A stretch of DNA of 57,655 nt, taken from IMG/VR virus record IMGVR_UViG_3300033144_001394, positions 1 to 57,655 of that record. One strand, written 5' to 3'. The stretch comes from a virus. The position numbers and the translations under genes were made by a program. Below are positions 3,996-47,244 of the stretch, in pieces; within the stretch, counting starts at the first letter, position 1; each line of letters begins with the position of its first letter. The notes under the pieces are model-generated. The model was not told the DNA's origin and did no database searches. It was given only the letters and a program-made list of their open reading frames with translations.

Positions 3996-6572
3996 ATGGC
4001 AAGAGTAAGAATAGTAAGAAAGGGAAATACGATGCAAGTCGGAGGATCTGCTCATACAGGCATGCCCGGTATGGGTGATAAGTCTTTATCATATCCTATT
4101 TCAGACCCACTTGGTGGAATGCAAGAGGCGACCAGTGTTAATAAAACTCTCAAGCCAATAGCTCGACAAGGAGCTACATTAGAAGCTGAGAAAGGGGAGA
4201 GTGTTGTTACAGATCTTGCTAAGATTGGTATACCTCAGCACTTTAATATTGGGGGCAAACGTCATTATGATGGCGGTACGCCTCTTAATTTACCTAATGA
4301 TTCATTTATCTTCTCCAGAGATAAGACCATGAAGATTAAGGACGATATGATCTTAGAACAGTTTGGAAAGAAAACACGTAAAGGTAAGCGTTCTTTTACT
4401 CCGGCTGAGATAGCGAAACAGTATCAGAATAATAAGTATTTAAAAATACTTATGGATCCTGACTCAAGTAGAATGCAGAGAGATACGGCTGAGATGATGA
4501 TTGAGAATAACAATCTTAAGTTAGGTGCATTAGCTATGGTACAAGAATCACGAAAAGGTTTTCCAGATGGAATACCCGGTGTTGCTATGCCTTATATGGA
4601 ACGTCTAGGATTAACTCCTGAGCAGTTGGTTCCTCAACAAGAACCACAAGAGGGACAGCAAGGACCACCACAACAAGAACAACCTCCTATGGAAATGCCT
4701 CAGATGGCACAAGGTATGAAAGCTGGTGGTTCTACAGGTAAGACGCGTGTTCGTATTAAGAAGACCGGTGGTTCTATACCTTCATATCAAAAAGGTGGTG
4801 GATTTAGACATCCCATTGGACCAATGCCAGGAATAACTTGGGAACAATGGGATAACATGTCTCCACAAGAAAAAGAAAGAGCAAGTCCTACTGACAACCC
4901 TGTAGAAGTGAACGGAGAAATAGTTCCCTCTACTTCGAATAAAAGCACCAAGCATCAAAACATTCCAGATGATGCTGTTAAGTGGGACATGACTACTGAA
5001 GGATATGACGAAAGTCAGGTTCAGCCAGGTGACTATATCCTTAAGGAGGATGGTAAATGGTATAGGACTACAGGTTATACACAAAAGAACTATGGTTATG
5101 AGGATAGCAGACTAGGTGAACTGCAACCAGCTTACGGTCACCTACAGAATACTATTACTGGTAACGAAGATCTGCAGAATGCAATTTATATCAATTACCA
5201 AAAGCATATCCAGGACAGTAATCTTTCTAAAGAGAAGAAAGACCGCCTCCTTAAGATGCCGAAGGATCAAGTAATCAATACTTTCCTACAGGGTCAGAAA
5301 CAAGTATATGCTATCAGCAACTCTGGTGCACTCTATCAACACAATGAAGATGGAAGCATCAAGGAAGATGTAGATGGCAATCCAATCATGAAATCTGAGA
5401 AAGATCTTAAGGTTTGGGAGAAGCGCGATAGTCCTGAGTATTATAAGCGAATGAAAGAGCTTGGTTTTAGTGAAGATGAGTTATTCTCAGGTGAGATGAC
5501 AGCTGTATTCCAAGCAGCGTATCGCGGACTAGAGGATGCTAGTCTTGATGAGCAATTCACTGAGACACTTGGTAACTTTAATATTACTCCAGTGGGTCTT
5601 AAAGATTCACATGGAATGCATACATATGACGGTAAGGCTATATCTCCAGTAGATGAGATCTTCGGAAATACTACGGCAGGTCAAGCAGTTCTTCCAATAG
5701 ATCTTGATAAAGATCTTACAACAGAAGAAGTTGAGTGGACTCCAGATGGAGTAGTAGATACTCCTGAAGGATTAAAGGTTCCACCACAGGGTGCTCCAAA
5801 TGCAGACTTTTGGTTACAGGACGTAGTCAAGAACTGGGGAGCTTTTAGTGATAGGGCTCGTATTAGTAAGGAAGCACCTTGGCAAGGACAAGCTGCAGTT
5901 AAACTAGCGGATCCTACATTTTTTGATCCAACAAGAGAACTTGCAGCCAATGCTGAGCTAGCTAATATTGCTACTCAAGGAGCTGCCATGTTTGCAGGAC
6001 CTCAAGCATATAATGCTAGATCTTCTCAGATTCAAGGACAGGCTGCTCAGAATGCTGCTAATATTCTTTCTCAATATAATCAGAAGAATGTCGGTACAGC
6101 AAATCAATTTGAGATGGCTAATACTCAGATAATGAATCAAGCTGCACAACAACGTAGTCAATTAGCTACACAGCTTTGGGATAAGAATGCTATTCTTAAC
6201 CAGCAGTATAAGAATTCTAAGAACAAGGCTATCGAGAACCAACGCCAGTCTTATATTGACGCTCTTACTAATAGAGCGCAGACTCAGGCGCTTAACTCTT
6301 TATATCCACAGTATAATGTAGATCCTATGTCAGGAGGCTTCTTAGACTATGATGCAGAAGCAGGTCGTAGAAGAAAACTAGAAGCTACCCAAAGTCAGAA
6401 TAAGACCATAACAGATAGCTTTGCTCGAATTAAAAGAGAGAATGCTGGTATTGATGATGCTACGGCTTATAAGTTAGCTTCTAAAGAAGCAGGTATGCCA
6501 GATGATACACCCTATGGTGCAGAAGCAGCATACTATGGAAACTACTTGGGCAACATGGCAGGGCATGAATAA
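3996..6572 (+). CDS. 858-residue Gly-Gly-motif virion/cargo-type protein
   Basis: The product starts with a basic segment (MARVRIVRKGN) and then NTMQVGGSAHTGMPG. Further GG motifs are FNIGGKR, YDGGTP, MKAGGSTGK, KKTGGSIP and YQKGGG, nearly all in the first ~270 residues. A Gln/Pro-rich linker lies near residues 210-240. The C-terminal third (about 650-800) is Ala/Gln/Asn-rich and probably long helix or coiled coil. I recognise no enzyme fold. It shares its GG motifs with the two preceding reading frames, so the three probably share a feature of virion assembly or processing. The role as an internal or tail cargo protein is inferred from position in front of the giant proteins. Confidence 0.75.
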   Translation: MARVRIVRKGNTMQVGGSAHTGMPGMGDKSLSYPISDPLGGMQEATSVNKTLKPIARQGATLEAEKGESVVTDLAKIGIPQHFNIGGKRHYDGGTPLNLPNDSFIFSRDKTMKIKDDMILEQFGKKTRKGKRSFTPAEIAKQYQNNKYLKILMDPDSSRMQRDTAEMMIENNNLKLGALAMVQESRKGFPDGIPGVAMPYMERLGLTPEQLVPQQEPQEGQQGPPQQEQPPMEMPQMAQGMKAGGSTGKTRVRIKKTGGSIPSYQKGGGFRHPIGPMPGITWEQWDNMSPQEKERASPTDNPVEVNGEIVPSTSNKSTKHQNIPDDAVKWDMTTEGYDESQVQPGDYILKEDGKWYRTTGYTQKNYGYEDSRLGELQPAYGHLQNTITGNEDLQNAIYINYQKHIQDSNLSKEKKDRLLKMPKDQVINTFLQGQKQVYAISNSGALYQHNEDGSIKEDVDGNPIMKSEKDLKVWEKRDSPEYYKRMKELGFSEDELFSGEMTAVFQAAYRGLEDASLDEQFTETLGNFNITPVGLKDSHGMHTYDGKAISPVDEIFGNTTAGQAVLPIDLDKDLTTEEVEWTPDGVVDTPEGLKVPPQGAPNADFWLQDVVKNWGAFSDRARISKEAPWQGQAAVKLADPTFFDPTRELAANAELANIATQGAAMFAGPQAYNARSSQIQGQAAQNAANILSQYNQKNVGTANQFEMANTQIMNQAAQQRSQLATQLWDKNAILNQQYKNSKNKAIENQRQSYIDALTNRAQTQALNSLYPQYNVDPMSGGFLDYDAEAGRRRKLEATQSQNKTITDSFARIKRENAGIDDATAYKLASKEAGMPDDTPYGAEAAYYGNYLGNMAGHE

Positions 6573-6573
6573 T

Positions 6574-6622
6574 AAACCTAAGAGGTTTGTTAAACTTATA
6601 TTATTTTTGAATTAAACTTATA
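6574..6622 (+). repeat. small hairpin and 11-bp direct repeat upstream of the GIY-YIG gene
   Basis: Just after the previous stop a 6-bp stem (AAACCT, 6574-6579; AGGTTT, 6583-6588) has a 3-nt loop. Next come two copies of TTAAACTTATA (6590-6600 and 6612-6622), spaced 22 bp, which end 7 bp before the ATG at 6630. This is the only sizeable gap in the left gene block and probably carried the leader of the ancestral gene before the endonuclease gene arrived. Promoter or operator function is only a possibility. Confidence 0.4.
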
Positions 6623-6629
6623 AAGTAAC

Positions 6630-7271
6630 ATGGCAACTTATTTACCAGGTGAATCTGGAATATACCAAATAGTAAACTTAGTATCTCAAAAAAGATATAT
6701 AGGTCTTGCTTCAAATATGAAAACTCGTATGAACGGTCATCTATATGACCTTAGAAGAGGCATCCATGCAAATGCTTATTTACAGAAAGCTTGGAATAAG
6801 TATGGCTCTAAAGCTTTTACCTTTAAATGTTTAGAGAAATGCGCTGTGTCTTCTTTACATTTACGTGAGGATTATTGGGTTCGAGTATTGAAGGTTGATC
6901 AACGATACTATGGTTATAATATTAAACCAACTAATCCTGAAGGTTGTTCTCAACACTCTGAAGAAACTAAGTTTAAGATAAGTAGAGACCATAAGTTTAA
7001 AGGTATAAAACCTGGTATATTATGTCTTAAAAAGAGACAAGAATTAGGAGTTACCGAAAGACAAAGAATTGCTATGCGAGAATCGTTAAAGAAGGTTAAC
7101 TTTTCTAAAGTGCATAGAGAAAAACGAGGAAAGAAGGTTATTAATGTTAAGACTCAAGAAGTATATAGTTCTTTAGCAGAAGTTGCTGAATTACTAGATG
7201 TTCATAAAGGTAGTCTTTCACGTAAACTTTCAGGTAAACGTAATAATAATACACATTATAAATATTTATAG
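6630..7271 (+). CDS. GIY-YIG homing endonuclease
   Basis: This 213-residue protein has an N-terminal GIY-YIG nuclease domain: GIY at 10-12, YIG at 23-25, the catalytic Arg in KTRMNGH (R33) and a Glu near residue 69. The C-terminal ~40 residues (VINVKTQEVYSSLAEVAELL) match the NUMOD1/helix-turn-helix DNA-binding modules typical of free-standing phage homing endonucleases. It lies inside the virion gene block, immediately before the MATYLPG... gene, with only 2 nt between its TAG and the next ATG. Its first seven residues, MATYLPG, are not part of the GIY-YIG fold and are identical to the start of that neighbour, although five of the six codons after ATG differ synonymously. The gene therefore appears to have captured the neighbour's start region. 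Confidence 0.93.
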   Translation: MATYLPGESGIYQIVNLVSQKRYIGLASNMKTRMNGHLYDLRRGIHANAYLQKAWNKYGSKAFTFKCLEKCAVSSLHLREDYWVRVLKVDQRYYGYNIKPTNPEGCSQHSEETKFKISRDHKFKGIKPGILCLKKRQELGVTERQRIAMRESLKKVNFSKVHREKRGKKVINVKTQEVYSSLAEVAELLDVHKGSLSRKLSGKRNNNTHYKYL

Positions 7272-7273
7272 TT

Positions 7274-10200
7274 ATGGCCACATATTTGCCCGGCGTCACA
7301 GATTATATACCGCAGATTCAACCATTCAAACCAGATTATAATTTTTACTCTGGTGCGCTTCAAATGAAGCAAGGTCAATATGATGCTTCTCATAAGCAGT
7401 TGAGTAACCTTTACGGATCTTTACTTAATGCTCCTATGTTGCGTGATCAAAACATTGAATCTCGTGATCAGTTCTTTAAAGCAATTAATAATGATATACA
7501 GAAGATATCCGGACTTGACCTCTCACTGCGAGAGAACGTTAGTGCAGCTTCCGACCTTTTTACTCAGATCTACGACAACGAAAATATCGTCAAGGACATG
7601 GTCTATACCAAGAACTACCAATCTGAGCTTACCAGAGCCGAAAGTTTCAGGAACTGTGTAGACATTGAGAAGTGTGGTGGGGCTTACTGGGAAGATGGTG
7701 TTAAGGCTTTAAACTATAAAGCAGATGAGTTTCGTAAGGCTTCTGATCAAGATGCATTAGGTATGCAGAACAGTAAATTTGCTTCATATCAAAATGTTAT
7801 GGAGAAGGCGGTTAAGCTTGCTAAAGATGCTGGACTTAACATTGAGATTGATCAGGTAAACGGCAGATACATTTACACAACTAAGAACGGTCCCAATCTT
7901 ATAAGACCACTTTCTGATTTATTTACAGGAGTATTTGCTAATGATCCTTCTATTCAGGAGTATTATAATGCTCAGGCTTATGTTCAACGTAAGGAGTGGA
8001 TCTTTGGAAACGCTAATCAATATGGTGGTGAAGCAGGTGCTGAACAGGCATATGCTGATCAGATGATCCAAGGCATGCAAGCTATGTTTGGTCAAATGGA
8101 GGAGGATATTACTTTTCAGAAAGATATGAATACTGGTCAGAAAAGTAATCTTGAAGATAGAATTACTAAGGAAGGTACTATTCCAAATAGTCCCCTTGCT
8201 AGACAGTATCAAGCACTTAATGAATATGAGCAACAGATTGATGCTACTGGAAAAGTCATAGAGAACACCAATGGTTATATTAAAAATGTACAAGATCCTG
8301 CTTTAAGAAGAGCAATGGGTGCTAACCTAGATAAGGTTATGGCCTCTTTCTTATTACAAGGGGATATTACAGGAGCTGCTGAAACACTTGCTTATAAGGA
8401 TTATTCTGTTAAAATGGAAGCTGATCCATATGCATTAGAAAACGTTAAGCAATCTAATAGATTAGCACTTGCTGAAAGGAAATTCCAATATGATATTGCT
8501 CTTGAAAAGTATAAGCTAGACCCAGAAGCTTGGGAGAAAAAACAGATGGAGATTGGTGATATTGATCAGAATATTCCAAATACGGTAGATGATGTAACCG
8601 GAGCAAGCGAAATTAATTTAGATGACGACGGTGCAGCTGTTGTTTATGAGGATATGATAAAAGAAGGTCGTAATGACTTTAGTAAGTCCGAGAGAGTGTT
8701 GATTAAAGATTATCTTGAACGGGTTAAAGAACAGTCTCGAGGTGAAGAATTTAAGGGTATCGCCTCTGAAGATTTAGTTGCCTTTGGTGAGGCTATGATT
8801 AATGAGATTAATACTGAGGAGAAGTATTCCACTTTTGAAGAGGGCGTTACAAGTACTATAAAAGGACAACGGGCTGAAGGAGGCTTGCGTCTTAAAGAAC
8901 AATGGGATAGTTTATCTAAAGCGGATAAAGTTAAAGCTATGCATACTAAAGATTTTGAGCAATACCTTACTGCTGATTATGGTTCAGGACTTAGTGGTAC
9001 AGCTATTGATAATATATTCGATAGTCAGATTCGACCTATTATACCTAAGAATGAAGATGAAAAAGTACAGAGGGAGTATCTTGGGGCTTGGAATACAGAT
9101 ACAGGTACTCTAAACAACCTTAGCATAATTGATCATAAGGAACAGGTTCTTGATGAGTTGAATAACTGGTTTATGTCAGAGAATGAAGATGTTCTTGGTA
9201 AGATGAAAGGGGATACTGGTTTCTTAGAATATAAACCCTATTTAGATCATTATTTTGATGAGAACTTTAAACCACGTAGTGCTCGAGAATTTGCACATAG
9301 TTATTTAGATGCTAATCCCGAACAAGACCCGGCTGATCCAAAGGTCCTTGAAAGATTAATGGAGGTATATTATGGTGATAGTTACGGAGCAATAAAAGAT
9401 AGTCCTAGTATATATACATGGATGGATTCTAGGGCGCGTGAAGGTCAAGGTGGGTTATCAAATAAGCTATTGGAAACAACCTTAAGTCTTTTGCCTAACC
9501 CTATGGCTAGGAGAACAAGAACAATTTCTGGGCTTATTTCAGAATTACCAGCAGATGAACAGGATGCAGCATGGGAAAAAGCAGAGAAAGAATATGGTAT
9601 TTCTAATCCTAATATGAATAAGTTTATCACACCCACAGGAGCTGGTTTAGATGTGGCATGGAGAAACGGTTTCTCAAAACATGCTACACCGGAAGGTGGA
9701 GCAATGTATCTAGGGCTTATGGGTAACGACAGCTATGCTGCAAGAGGAATAAACTACGCTAGAGTAGATCCCATAGCTATTAAGAGTGGAGCCACTATGA
9801 ATGTTATGAGTTTCTTTAGTGACGTTCTAGGAGCAAGTACCGGTGATATGCGACTTACTTTAGAAGGTCCTCAAGCTGAAATGGAAGATGTTGAGCATAA
9901 GGCAGACCTAATGCCTATATTTAATCAACTCTATCAGGACATGTTTAATATGGCTAGTCCTAAAGAAGGAAATCGACCTGTGTTAAACGTAACCTATCAA
10001 GATATTGCTGGAGGTACTCGTGACTGGACTGCTCTTAATATAAAATTCAATGAGCCTTATATGAAGGAATATTTAGGTAGTGATGCCAACAAAGGTATAT
10101 TTAGAGAGAAGGAGCAACTAACGGTTTTGCTCAGGGTACATCTAAAACTTCTCTTGAAGAAGATTTATATTGGACAGGTCAACATGAAATTAAAGGTTAT

Positions 10201-10312
10201 AATGATATATTTGATAATGTTAGGCTTATTCGGGATAAGGAGAATGGTGGATTCAAGCTTACAGGCAGAATGTATGATGGTCTTAATAAAGAAGGCAAAG
10301 TTAATTGGATAA
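7274..10312 (+). CDS. large virion/cargo-type protein (MATYLPG family), frameshifted near its 3' end
   Basis: This frame codes for ~1012 residues starting MATYLPGVTDYIPQIQPF, an N-terminus that I recall as conserved at the start of a large structural/cargo protein of crAss-like phages. The sequence is mostly acidic and helix-forming, with no catalytic motif that I can identify. The true product follows this frame to about nt 10105-10117 (GIFREKE) and then switches to the -1 frame; the last ~65 residues of this frame (Leu/Ile/Lys-rich) look spurious. The corrected protein would be about 1065 residues ending at 10470. It sits directly before the three giant genes, so delivery with the virion polymerase is a reasonable inference. 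Confidence 0.75.
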   Translation: MATYLPGVTDYIPQIQPFKPDYNFYSGALQMKQGQYDASHKQLSNLYGSLLNAPMLRDQNIESRDQFFKAINNDIQKISGLDLSLRENVSAASDLFTQIYDNENIVKDMVYTKNYQSELTRAESFRNCVDIEKCGGAYWEDGVKALNYKADEFRKASDQDALGMQNSKFASYQNVMEKAVKLAKDAGLNIEIDQVNGRYIYTTKNGPNLIRPLSDLFTGVFANDPSIQEYYNAQAYVQRKEWIFGNANQYGGEAGAEQAYADQMIQGMQAMFGQMEEDITFQKDMNTGQKSNLEDRITKEGTIPNSPLARQYQALNEYEQQIDATGKVIENTNGYIKNVQDPALRRAMGANLDKVMASFLLQGDITGAAETLAYKDYSVKMEADPYALENVKQSNRLALAERKFQYDIALEKYKLDPEAWEKKQMEIGDIDQNIPNTVDDVTGASEINLDDDGAAVVYEDMIKEGRNDFSKSERVLIKDYLERVKEQSRGEEFKGIASEDLVAFGEAMINEINTEEKYSTFEEGVTSTIKGQRAEGGLRLKEQWDSLSKADKVKAMHTKDFEQYLTADYGSGLSGTAIDNIFDSQIRPIIPKNEDEKVQREYLGAWNTDTGTLNNLSIIDHKEQVLDELNNWFMSENEDVLGKMKGDTGFLEYKPYLDHYFDENFKPRSAREFAHSYLDANPEQDPADPKVLERLMEVYYGDSYGAIKDSPSIYTWMDSRAREGQGGLSNKLLETTLSLLPNPMARRTRTISGLISELPADEQDAAWEKAEKEYGISNPNMNKFITPTGAGLDVAWRNGFSKHATPEGGAMYLGLMGNDSYAARGINYARVDPIAIKSGATMNVMSFFSDVLGASTGDMRLTLEGPQAEMEDVEHKADLMPIFNQLYQDMFNMASPKEGNRPVLNVTYQDIAGGTRDWTALNIKFNEPYMKEYLGSDANKGIFREKEQLTVLLRVHLKLLLKKIYIGQVNMKLKVIMIYLIMLGLFGIRRMVDSSLQAECMMVLIKKAKLIG

Positions 10313-10470
10313 CCCTTAATGAATACTCCCCTCCAGGAACAAGTCCAGACGTAATTAAGAACAGATTTCTTAATGAATTTGCACCTATTATTCAACCTGT
10401 TTATGATGATGAGATGCAATTCTATATGTCTAATCATCCTAATTATACCACCGATCCATCACAACTTTAA
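10105..10470 (+). CDS. C-terminal part of the MATYLPG-family protein in the -1 frame
   Basis: From 10105 the -1 frame reads REGATNGFAQGTSKTSLEED and continues as good coding sequence to TAA at 10470. There is no start codon until 10270, so this is not a separate gene. A TAG at 10102-10104 closes the frame upstream, which confines the crossover to about 10105-10117. Either one missing G in GGAG or an extra AG in the (AG)n run at 10103-10108 would restore continuity. The next gene begins 11 nt after the stop. Confidence 0.7.
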   Translation, partial: REGATNGFAQGTSKTSLEEDLYWTGQHEIKGYNDIFDNVRLIRDKENGGFKLTGRMYDGLNKEGKVNWITLNEYSPPGTSPDVIKNRFLNEFAPIIQPVYDDEMQFYMSNHPNYTTDPSQL

Positions 10471-10481
10471 TATTTTAGGTT

Positions 10482-46025: not shown

Positions 46026-46550
46026 TTATCTAGGAAATTTACGCCGTAAATATTCGGCTATTAATAATGCGTCAACCAGTCCATCATGTGGAACGGATGA
46101 CTTCTCTGTCATTAGCAGGTTTACTTTTGGGAACAGTCTCTTAGCTGCAATGAGTGCCATCTTCTTGGTATCCTTTGCGCTCTTGGATCCCGTCTTGAGG
46201 ATCACCGTCTGTCCCTGAAATATTTCCGCCTGCCATTTCTTAGCGGGTACCATAGTGTACTGTATAGAATTAGCTATGCACATCATTTCAAATGCGCCTG
46301 CCTGGTATCCCATGGAGAAGGCTGTCTTCTTTGAGGATCCGAAGATCACACCAAGTTTTTCAAAACCTACCATTCCATTAAACCCTTCGTACTGAGAGAT
46401 ACCCTGATTGAACTTATGCCAATCAATCTCCTTACCTACCATAGGCATCTTGCCTCGTGATATCTCACTGCCATCTTCTCCCATTATGTAGTAAGCACCC
46501 AACTTACCGATGTCAATACCTATGTAGAGCCGTTGTTTTTTCTGTTCCAT
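46026..46550 (-). CDS. RuvC-like Holliday junction resolvase
   Basis: 174 residues with the RNase H-fold acidic residues in order: D13 (YIGIDIGKLGA), E64 (MVGFEKLG), and a C-terminal HDGLVDALLIAEY with D156 and D160. Between them AKKWQ and the basic helix match phage RuvC relatives. The enzyme should cut four-way junctions made during phage recombination and replication before packaging. The first 38 nt overlap the 3' end of the HNH endonuclease gene in another frame. Confidence 0.88.
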   Translation of the reverse strand: MEQKKQRLYIGIDIGKLGAYYIMGEDGSEISRGKMPMVGKEIDWHKFNQGISQYEGFNGMVGFEKLGVIFGSSKKTAFSMGYQAGAFEMMCIANSIQYTMVPAKKWQAEIFQGQTVILKTGSKSAKDTKKMALIAAKRLFPKVNLLMTEKSSVPHDGLVDALLIAEYLRRKFPR

Positions 46551-47244
46551 ATTTATCTTTATTAATTTGTGTATTCATACCACCTTTAGTCAGATTATCT
46601 TTAGCCCAAAGTGGTTGTAAGTTACTTAACTGCCAACAAGCTATGAACTCTAAGTCCGTTTTTAGAGTAAAATCAAAAGCAGATACTGGTTTGATATGAT
46701 CTATATGCCATTCACCATAGTTATCCCATGTCATACCTTCTTCAAAGAGAGCCTCGATATGAGATCTAAGTACATTAACGGTGTAACCAAAAGGTTCTAG
46801 CCAGTTATTTGCGGTCTTATCAGAATATTTTGTAATTATTCTTGAGAAGGCTCTAGTATACTGCTTATTTAATTTATACTGAGACAAAGACATTTTGTTT
46901 CTACCTTTATGCTTATAGCAACAGTCTTTTGAACAGTACTTACCTGAATGTTTTTTCGTATCAACGGCATGTTTGGGCACAGTGAATTCTGTTTTACATT
47001 CAAGACAACTGAAACCTAACCCACCACCTTTATAGTTAGGGTTATTACTTCCAGTATAGTCACCACGACTATTAAGGAATTTGGTTTTAGTTTCTAAAGT
47101 ATATGTTCTATTCTTGTTACCATTGGCAACTCGACAAGAGTTAGTGCAAAACTTCTTCTTTAGGTCACTGGCACGGTTGATATCAAAACTATGATTGCAA
47201 TAGTTACAGATTCTTTCTATAGGATAATTGTGTTTCTTATACAT
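46513..47244 (-). CDS. HNH homing endonuclease with zinc fingers
   Basis: 243 residues. The N-terminal part has Cys pairs (C13-C16, C33-C37; C80-C83, C104-C108), i.e. two treble-clef/zinc-ribbon-like modules flanking a NUMOD3-like SNNPNYKGGG. The HNH core is WHIDHIKPVS (180-189), then NLQPLWAKDNLTKG with the conserved Asn and Lys. Such genes are mobile free-standing endonucleases. It lies just upstream of the RuvC-like gene, and its last 12 codons are read from the start of that gene in a different frame, as expected for an insertion at a gene boundary. A hairpin ends one base before its ATG. Confidence 0.9.
   Translation of the reverse strand: MYKKHNYPIERICNYCNHSFDINRASDLKKKFCTNSCRVANGNKNRTYTLETKTKFLNSRGDYTGSNNPNYKGGGLGFSCLECKTEFTVPKHAVDTKKHSGKYCSKDCCYKHKGRNKMSLSQYKLNKQYTRAFSRIITKYSDKTANNWLEPFGYTVNVLRSHIEALFEEGMTWDNYGEWHIDHIKPVSAFDFTLKTDLEFIACWQLSNLQPLWAKDNLTKGGMNTQINKDKYGTEKTTALHRY

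Follow-up and report, generated by a model that had tools for sequence, protein, structure and literature searches.

The window analysed here is a 57,655-nucleotide stretch of viral DNA (positions 1 to 57,655 of IMG/VR record IMGVR_UViG_3300033144_001394). It carries a gene for a GIY-YIG homing endonuclease and, starting 2 nt past the stop of that gene, a long open reading frame that is referred to below as the target gene. Alleles of the target gene lacking a nuclease gene in front of them are called unoccupied or free, and individual loci bear L numbers. The features of the window locus are as follows.

6573..6629, plus strand: native leader of the target gene, now preceding the endonuclease; it aligns with unoccupied L345 and L321
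~6591-6610, plus strand: leader block TAAACTTATATTATTTTTGA, common to the window and unoccupied relatives
6630..7271, plus strand: GIY-YIG homing endonuclease gene, 213 aa (Pfam GIY-YIG 8e-7; I-TevI catalytic domain 1.8e-11; Foldseek to 1ln0 4.6e-6)
6630..6650, plus strand: captured native start, now endonuclease codons 1-7 (ATG GCA ACT TAT TTA CCA GGT); 2/21 nt differences to unoccupied L345 (downstream copy, 6/21)
6651..7294, plus strand: inserted element, likely extent (endonuclease body and recoded start); the exact junction is inferred from the 638/641-bp insertions of relatives
6654..6887, plus strand: GIY-YIG catalytic domain, residues 9-86 (Pfam); GIY, YIG, R33, E80 and N97 are invariant among the family
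7026..7268, plus strand: C-terminal DNA-binding-like tail, residues 133-213; L083 has, at the corresponding site, an HNH/AP2 nuclease joined to a homologous tail, and there is a weak I-HmuI NUMOD-like match
7269..7276, plus strand: stop-start junction TAG TT ATG, with a 2-nt gap
7274..7300, plus strand: regenerated, recoded target-gene start, codons 1-9, from comparison with relatives
7274..10312, plus strand: target gene, ORF of 1012 aa as read; putative virion or cargo protein, function inferred from position only

Both genes begin by encoding MATYLPG. The target ORF starts at 7274 with ATG GCC ACA TAT TTG CCC GGC, and the two starts differ at the third position in five of the six codons after ATG, only TAT being common to both. 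The original prediction had reported this pair of starts, and that claim held exactly.

We examined the endonuclease protein by several approaches. Pfam, PHROGs, a PDB sequence search and a structure model agree on a nuclease of the I-TevI type from residue 8-10 on. The Pfam GIY-YIG match spans residues 9-86, and the match to the I-TevI catalytic domain begins at residue 8, which is paired with I-TevI residue 2; in the structure model, residues 1-6 have pLDDT values below 50. MATYLPG is an extension that precedes the nuclease fold and lies outside it, as had been claimed. Membership of the GIY-YIG catalytic-domain family is met by the Pfam and I-TevI matches listed above and by the invariance of the conserved residues. 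For a separate DNA-binding module there are only hints: NUMOD3 was detected in 6 of 7 members (best 7e-4), the window protein gave only a weak NUMOD-like match, and its tail is shared with an HNH nuclease. The C-terminal half is poorly predicted in the structure model (mean pLDDT 59.7). All 17 endonucleases of the set are full length, and dN/dS ranges from 0.17 to 0.54 in the 12 most similar pairs (those of lowest dS). Rfam gave no group I or group II intron match within window positions 5900-8000. Given this and its separate ORF with its own stop, the gene does not qualify as an intron- or intein-borne endonuclease. A sigma-70 promoter scan of the region gave hits no more numerous than those in shuffled sequences.

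Using the endonuclease as query, we recovered nine IMG/VR loci that match residues 1-213 or, in the case of one truncated contig, residues 1-158. Wherever these loci retain downstream sequence, the endonuclease directly precedes a homologous target gene with a near-identical start. Relatives of the target could be reached only through alignment of N-terminal parts; the full target protein found no relatives among viral contigs, and tblastn of the target against INPHARED gave no match. With the N-terminal part of the target gene as query, 101 distinct IMG/VR alleles were obtained: 17 occupied by GIY-YIG genes (the window included), 80 unoccupied, 3 occupied by HNH genes (L083, L091, L234) and 1 deletion fossil (L128). 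A GIY-YIG pattern alone does not flag the HNH loci and the fossil as occupied. An additional scan toward the window's side of the family extended the set beyond the 101: it yielded a further GIY-YIG allele, L303/L304 (MATYIYLPEKSGIYQI), with a leader identical to the one in unoccupied L302, and a further two HNH alleles, L307 and L362. Chance identity of the heptapeptides was rejected, because the arrangement recurs at this gene in distant relatives, whose endonucleases are 47-54% identical. By contrast, none of about 70 further endonucleases in the wider family has more than 3 of 8 residues in common with the beginning of the gene that follows it.

The target protein has no Pfam, PHROG or PDB match. 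Its earlier description as a virion protein is plausible from position and remains a possibility that has not been shown. It may also be a virion cargo protein of a crAss-like phage, an inference, not a proof, drawn from matches to DNA polymerase and Sak4 and from a gene order, set against that of crAss001, that places the gene next to RNA-polymerase-like ORFs of very large size. One such ORF, of 3584 aa, lies a few genes downstream of the target gene. Identity with the crAss001 cargo proteins is not shown by sequence. As a separate observation, the target ORF stops at 10312 and the protein seemingly continues in another frame to about 10470; this apparent frameshift in window positions 10100-10480 is either real or an assembly error.

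Alignment of occupied with unoccupied loci revealed a single clean insertion, of 638 bp in L001/L137, L003/L110 and L130/L123 and of 641 bp in L228/L215. It falls after codon 7 in L001/L137 and after codon 6 in the other three pairs. Leaders were identical at 60/60 nt in three pairs (L001/L137, L228/L215, and L002 or L003 with L110), with the upstream codons differing by 0-3 nt. The unoccupied 60-nt leader and codons 1-7 of L137 are identical to the endonuclease start of L001, whereas 5 of 18 nt are changed in the new start. Among 13 pairs, the mean distance from the unoccupied allele was 1.5 of 18 nt for the upstream copy and 5.6 of 18 for the downstream copy. The window itself has no close empty-site relative, the nearest free ones being 36-37% diverged in codons 16-114. 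Its upstream copy was nearer to the free alleles at 73 of 84 loci and its downstream copy at 4 (the 84 include the 3 HNH loci and the fossil). Free L345, compared with both copies in the list above, also shares the leader block, and 20 or more nucleotides of the window leader are in common with L345 and L321. The spacing between endonuclease stop and target start among GIY-YIG-occupied loci was −4 (ATGA), −1 (TAATG), +1 (2 loci) or +2 nt.

These comparisons establish that 1) the element sits after codon 6 or 7, and the endonuclease, lacking a start that is its own, is started by the leader and first codons of the target; and 2) at its end the element carries a recoded duplicate of the first target codons, which keeps the target protein whole. 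The original prediction had placed the insertion at codon 7-8, with takeover of the start and a synonymously altered second start left behind, and had proposed alignment with endonuclease-free relatives as a check. Its claim held, with the insertion after codon 6 or 7, and the free alleles matched the upstream copy (leader and codons 1-6 or 1-7), not the downstream one. An AT-rich box (TAAACTT..AAGTTTA..AAATTTTAATATATTTACA) is also conserved in most leaders, some 20-60 nt ahead of the start; it could conceivably be a late promoter of these phages.

Next, we asked how far the recoding of the regenerated start extends. Between new starts and their nearest unoccupied alleles, synonymous changes were found at 63 of 93 codons (68%) in codons 2-9 and at 281 of 1240 (23%) in codons 10-114 (odds ratio 7.2). 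Nine separate pairs gave 43/64 for codons 2-9 versus 201/852 beyond (p = 2e-12), and comparisons of unoccupied neighbours with each other gave 86/288 and 735/3705, respectively. Codons 2-9 ranked top of 106 windows for synonymous change (0.68; runner-up 0.34). In the close pair L001/L137, 6 of 8 synonymous codons were changed at the start versus 6 of 101 further on. Compared with unrelated unoccupied starts, downstream starts are changed at 65% of synonymous codons; for unoccupied starts compared among themselves the figure is 41-47%. The native codons at positions 2, 6 and 7 are almost wholly avoided in downstream starts: the majority codon GCA at codon 2 occurs in 48/62 unoccupied alleles, 0/12 downstream copies and 11/12 upstream copies, and CAA at codon 6 in 49/62, 1/12 and 11/12. 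Codon 8, which lies outside the duplicated stretch, was changed in 12 of 13 pairs versus 14 of 34 controls. As recoded starts of one element type share ancestry, these pair tests are not fully independent. In five loci (L002, L003, L006, L210, L238), the upstream and downstream copies of the locus are separated by just 1-2 synonymous differences within codons 2-6, with amino-acid changes contributing. I-TevI has a cut motif of the CNNNG type; such a motif occurs in native and recoded starts alike, and does not discriminate between the copies.

The same insertion point is occupied by HNH nucleases in L083, L091, L234, L307 and L362. The small HNH-AP2 endonucleases of L091, L234, L307 and L362 are unrelated to the GIY-YIG gene, and their gaps to the target are 1-3 nt. 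The L234 gene retains the native leader and ATG GCA, followed by its own codons. In L083 (1723-2499), an HNH/AP2 nuclease carries a fused 81-residue tail that shares 44% identity with the tail of the window endonuclease (E 1e-18), representing a nuclease swap on one DNA-binding tail. That one tail is common to two unrelated nucleases suggests that it chooses the site.

We then compared the histories of endonuclease, new start and backbone. Supported branches of the endonuclease tree and the target-gene tree conflict. L241 and L228 are 88% identical in endonuclease DNA and 54% in target-gene DNA, and the reverse holds for L241 and L238 (73% and 82%). On the target-gene tree, 13 gains or losses are needed, 11 of them forced by supported branches. 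The spelling of the new start is modestly linked to the endonuclease (Mantel r about 0.35, p 0.008; ATG AGT starts in 6/6 rows of one endonuclease clade), its correlation with the target gene body or backbone is less clear (r 0.29, p 0.06), and no relation holds between endonuclease and backbone (r 0.01). The endonuclease transfers from one phage backbone to another, and tends to take the new-start spelling along. Occupied and empty alleles with horizontal spread, a criterion for a homing endonuclease, are met.

Traces of loss were found as well. In fossil L128, the native leader is followed by 31 nt that match the endonuclease tail of L238/L206 at 30 positions and then by the matching recoded start. 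Unoccupied L143 and L132 are identical in the leader (60/60 nt), yet 6 of codons 2-9 differ between them, compared with 3 of the 105 later codons. An excess of change in codons 2-9 was seen in 11 of 30 close unoccupied pairs, involving only 11 loci of one clade. Such respelled alleles are best read as deletion scars or as resistant alleles acquired via recombination, which the data cannot separate. With the fossil, they suggest repeated gain and loss, as inferred from sequence. Separately, codons 2-9 are hypervariable, at silent sites and some residues, within two groups of near-identical unoccupied phages (L132/L143/L204/L145/L155 and L205/L214/L216/L220/L224).

We consider the locus likely to hold a free-standing homing element of the GIY-YIG type that targets specifically the 5′ end of a single gene in a family of uncultured phages, capturing its start and carrying a recoded repair; cleavage, homing and immunity are inferred. 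The endonuclease would cut unoccupied alleles around codons 2-9, and an occupied genome would serve as repair template, the leader giving homology on one flank of the break and the gene body on the other flank. The site in the upstream copy would be split by the insertion and that in the regenerated copy destroyed by synonymous changes, leaving the donor chromosome immune. Translation of the target would re-initiate past the endonuclease stop, which would make the phage dependent on an intact element; this coupling is inferred from gene spacing only. Loss by deletion would leave unoccupied alleles that keep the recoded, presumably resistant start. Self-protection, one of two reasons for the recoding offered by the original prediction, is the best supported and probably correct, as inferred from sequence without cleavage data. 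A bolder reading, which we would as readily doubt as accept, holds that these are natural start-capture home-and-rescue drives, that GIY-YIG, HNH-AP2 and chimeric nucleases colonised the first codons of one gene, and that waves of gain and loss left a synonymous scar, making codons 2-9 the record of an arms race.

Other explanations of the recoding must be weighed. It might mainly stop recombination between the two start copies, which would delete the element, instead of preventing cleavage. In favour of this, the copies form an imperfect repeat 18-21 bp long, and unoccupied alleles with a native leader and recoded codons resemble such deletion products. However, recoding extends to the unduplicated codon 8, pointing to loss of a binding or cutting site more than to repeat avoidance, and it is also found in unoccupied alleles, which have no repeat; we regard this alternative as unlikely. 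A neutral origin, with the downstream start being a foreign allele hitch-hiking with the endonuclease from its last donor or a product of post-insertion drift, is likewise improbable. Elements do move among distant backbones, and a weak correlation links new-start spelling to the endonuclease. But drift is excluded by close pairs, as shown by the contrast between start and gene body in L001/L137, and hitch-hiking alone is disfavoured by the avoidance of native codons and by divergence of 65% where 41-47% is predicted.

Two further alternatives fare worse. The altered codons might tune re-initiation on the target after the endonuclease stop, the native leader having been lost; every GIY-YIG-occupied locus has a junction of −4, −1, +1 or +2 nt, and third-position GC is slightly raised in recoded starts (0.33 vs 0.25). 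Yet unoccupied alleles whose native leader is identical show similar recoding (e.g. L143 vs L132), making this reading very doubtful. The other reason in the original prediction, that the heptapeptide is a functional tag, for instance for packaging, common to endonuclease and virion protein, is not supported. The peptide is conserved at the target start across about 100 alleles, but the upstream codons track unoccupied DNA even at silent sites, as for an inherited start. The peptide also varies (MATFLQA, MASYINI, MATYIYL), precedes the nuclease only in this group, and is absent from HNH nucleases at the same site, L234 keeping Met-Ala only. It appears to be inherited from the insertion point, and a tag is highly unlikely.

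The closest precedent for the start-capturing element is the yeast WHO element. At FBA1 of Torulaspora and Lachancea, WHO homing elements replace the 3′ end of the gene with a diverged, nuclease-resistant version and undergo repeated turnover (PMC7282813). Both systems combine insertion at an essential gene, an own version of one gene end and displacement of the recipient's old end (PMC7282813), a criterion met here at the 5′ instead of the 3′ end. In contrast, WHO elements encode an HO-like intein/zinc-finger nuclease, a criterion not met by the GIY-YIG phage nuclease, and their displaced fragment is a dead remnant; only in the phage element is the displaced native start reused as the nuclease's own. 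As to a resistant regenerated target, the sequence differences lie at the expected place and resistance is only inferred. Phage T4 carries free-standing Seg and Mob endonucleases, GIY-YIG enzymes outside introns among them, several of which are promoter-less and use host promoters and some of which overlap neighbouring genes (PMC2988022). The phage element resembles them in being free-standing and borrowing expression signals (PMC2988022). However, T4 elements adjoin or lie between genes, and the relevant sections of PMC2988022 describe no start takeover combined with a recoded replacement. I-TevI (PDB 1ln0/1mk0) has a homologous catalytic domain from residue 8, with its E75 aligned to E80, but it resides in a group I intron, of which no Rfam family matches here, and begins directly at the nuclease domain.

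In the engineered HomeR system, a nuclease cassette within an essential gene uses the native promoter, and a short recoded piece restores the gene and resists cutting (PMC7968924). HomeR is CRISPR-based, works in Drosophila and recodes the 3′ end, whereas in the natural element some nine codons at the 5′ end are recoded. With cleavage and immunity inferred, the phage element is likely to be a natural counterpart of home-and-rescue drives. Searches of open-access full texts returned no account of start capture combined with recoding of the 5′ end. How a homing element that lacks an intron or intein persists in an essential gene and avoids cutting its own copy is an old question, and start capture with about nine recoded codons is a suggested, testable answer. 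The fossil and scar alleles let the gain-loss cycle of a natural drive be read from metagenomes. As a caution, synonymous divergence at phage gene starts may reflect nucleases rather than translation.

Elsewhere in the window, a second endonuclease-like gene (HNH-like zinc-ribbon; 46513-47244, minus strand) overlaps the start of a RuvC-like gene (46026-46550), and the first residues of its protein are unlike the start of the RuvC-like gene.
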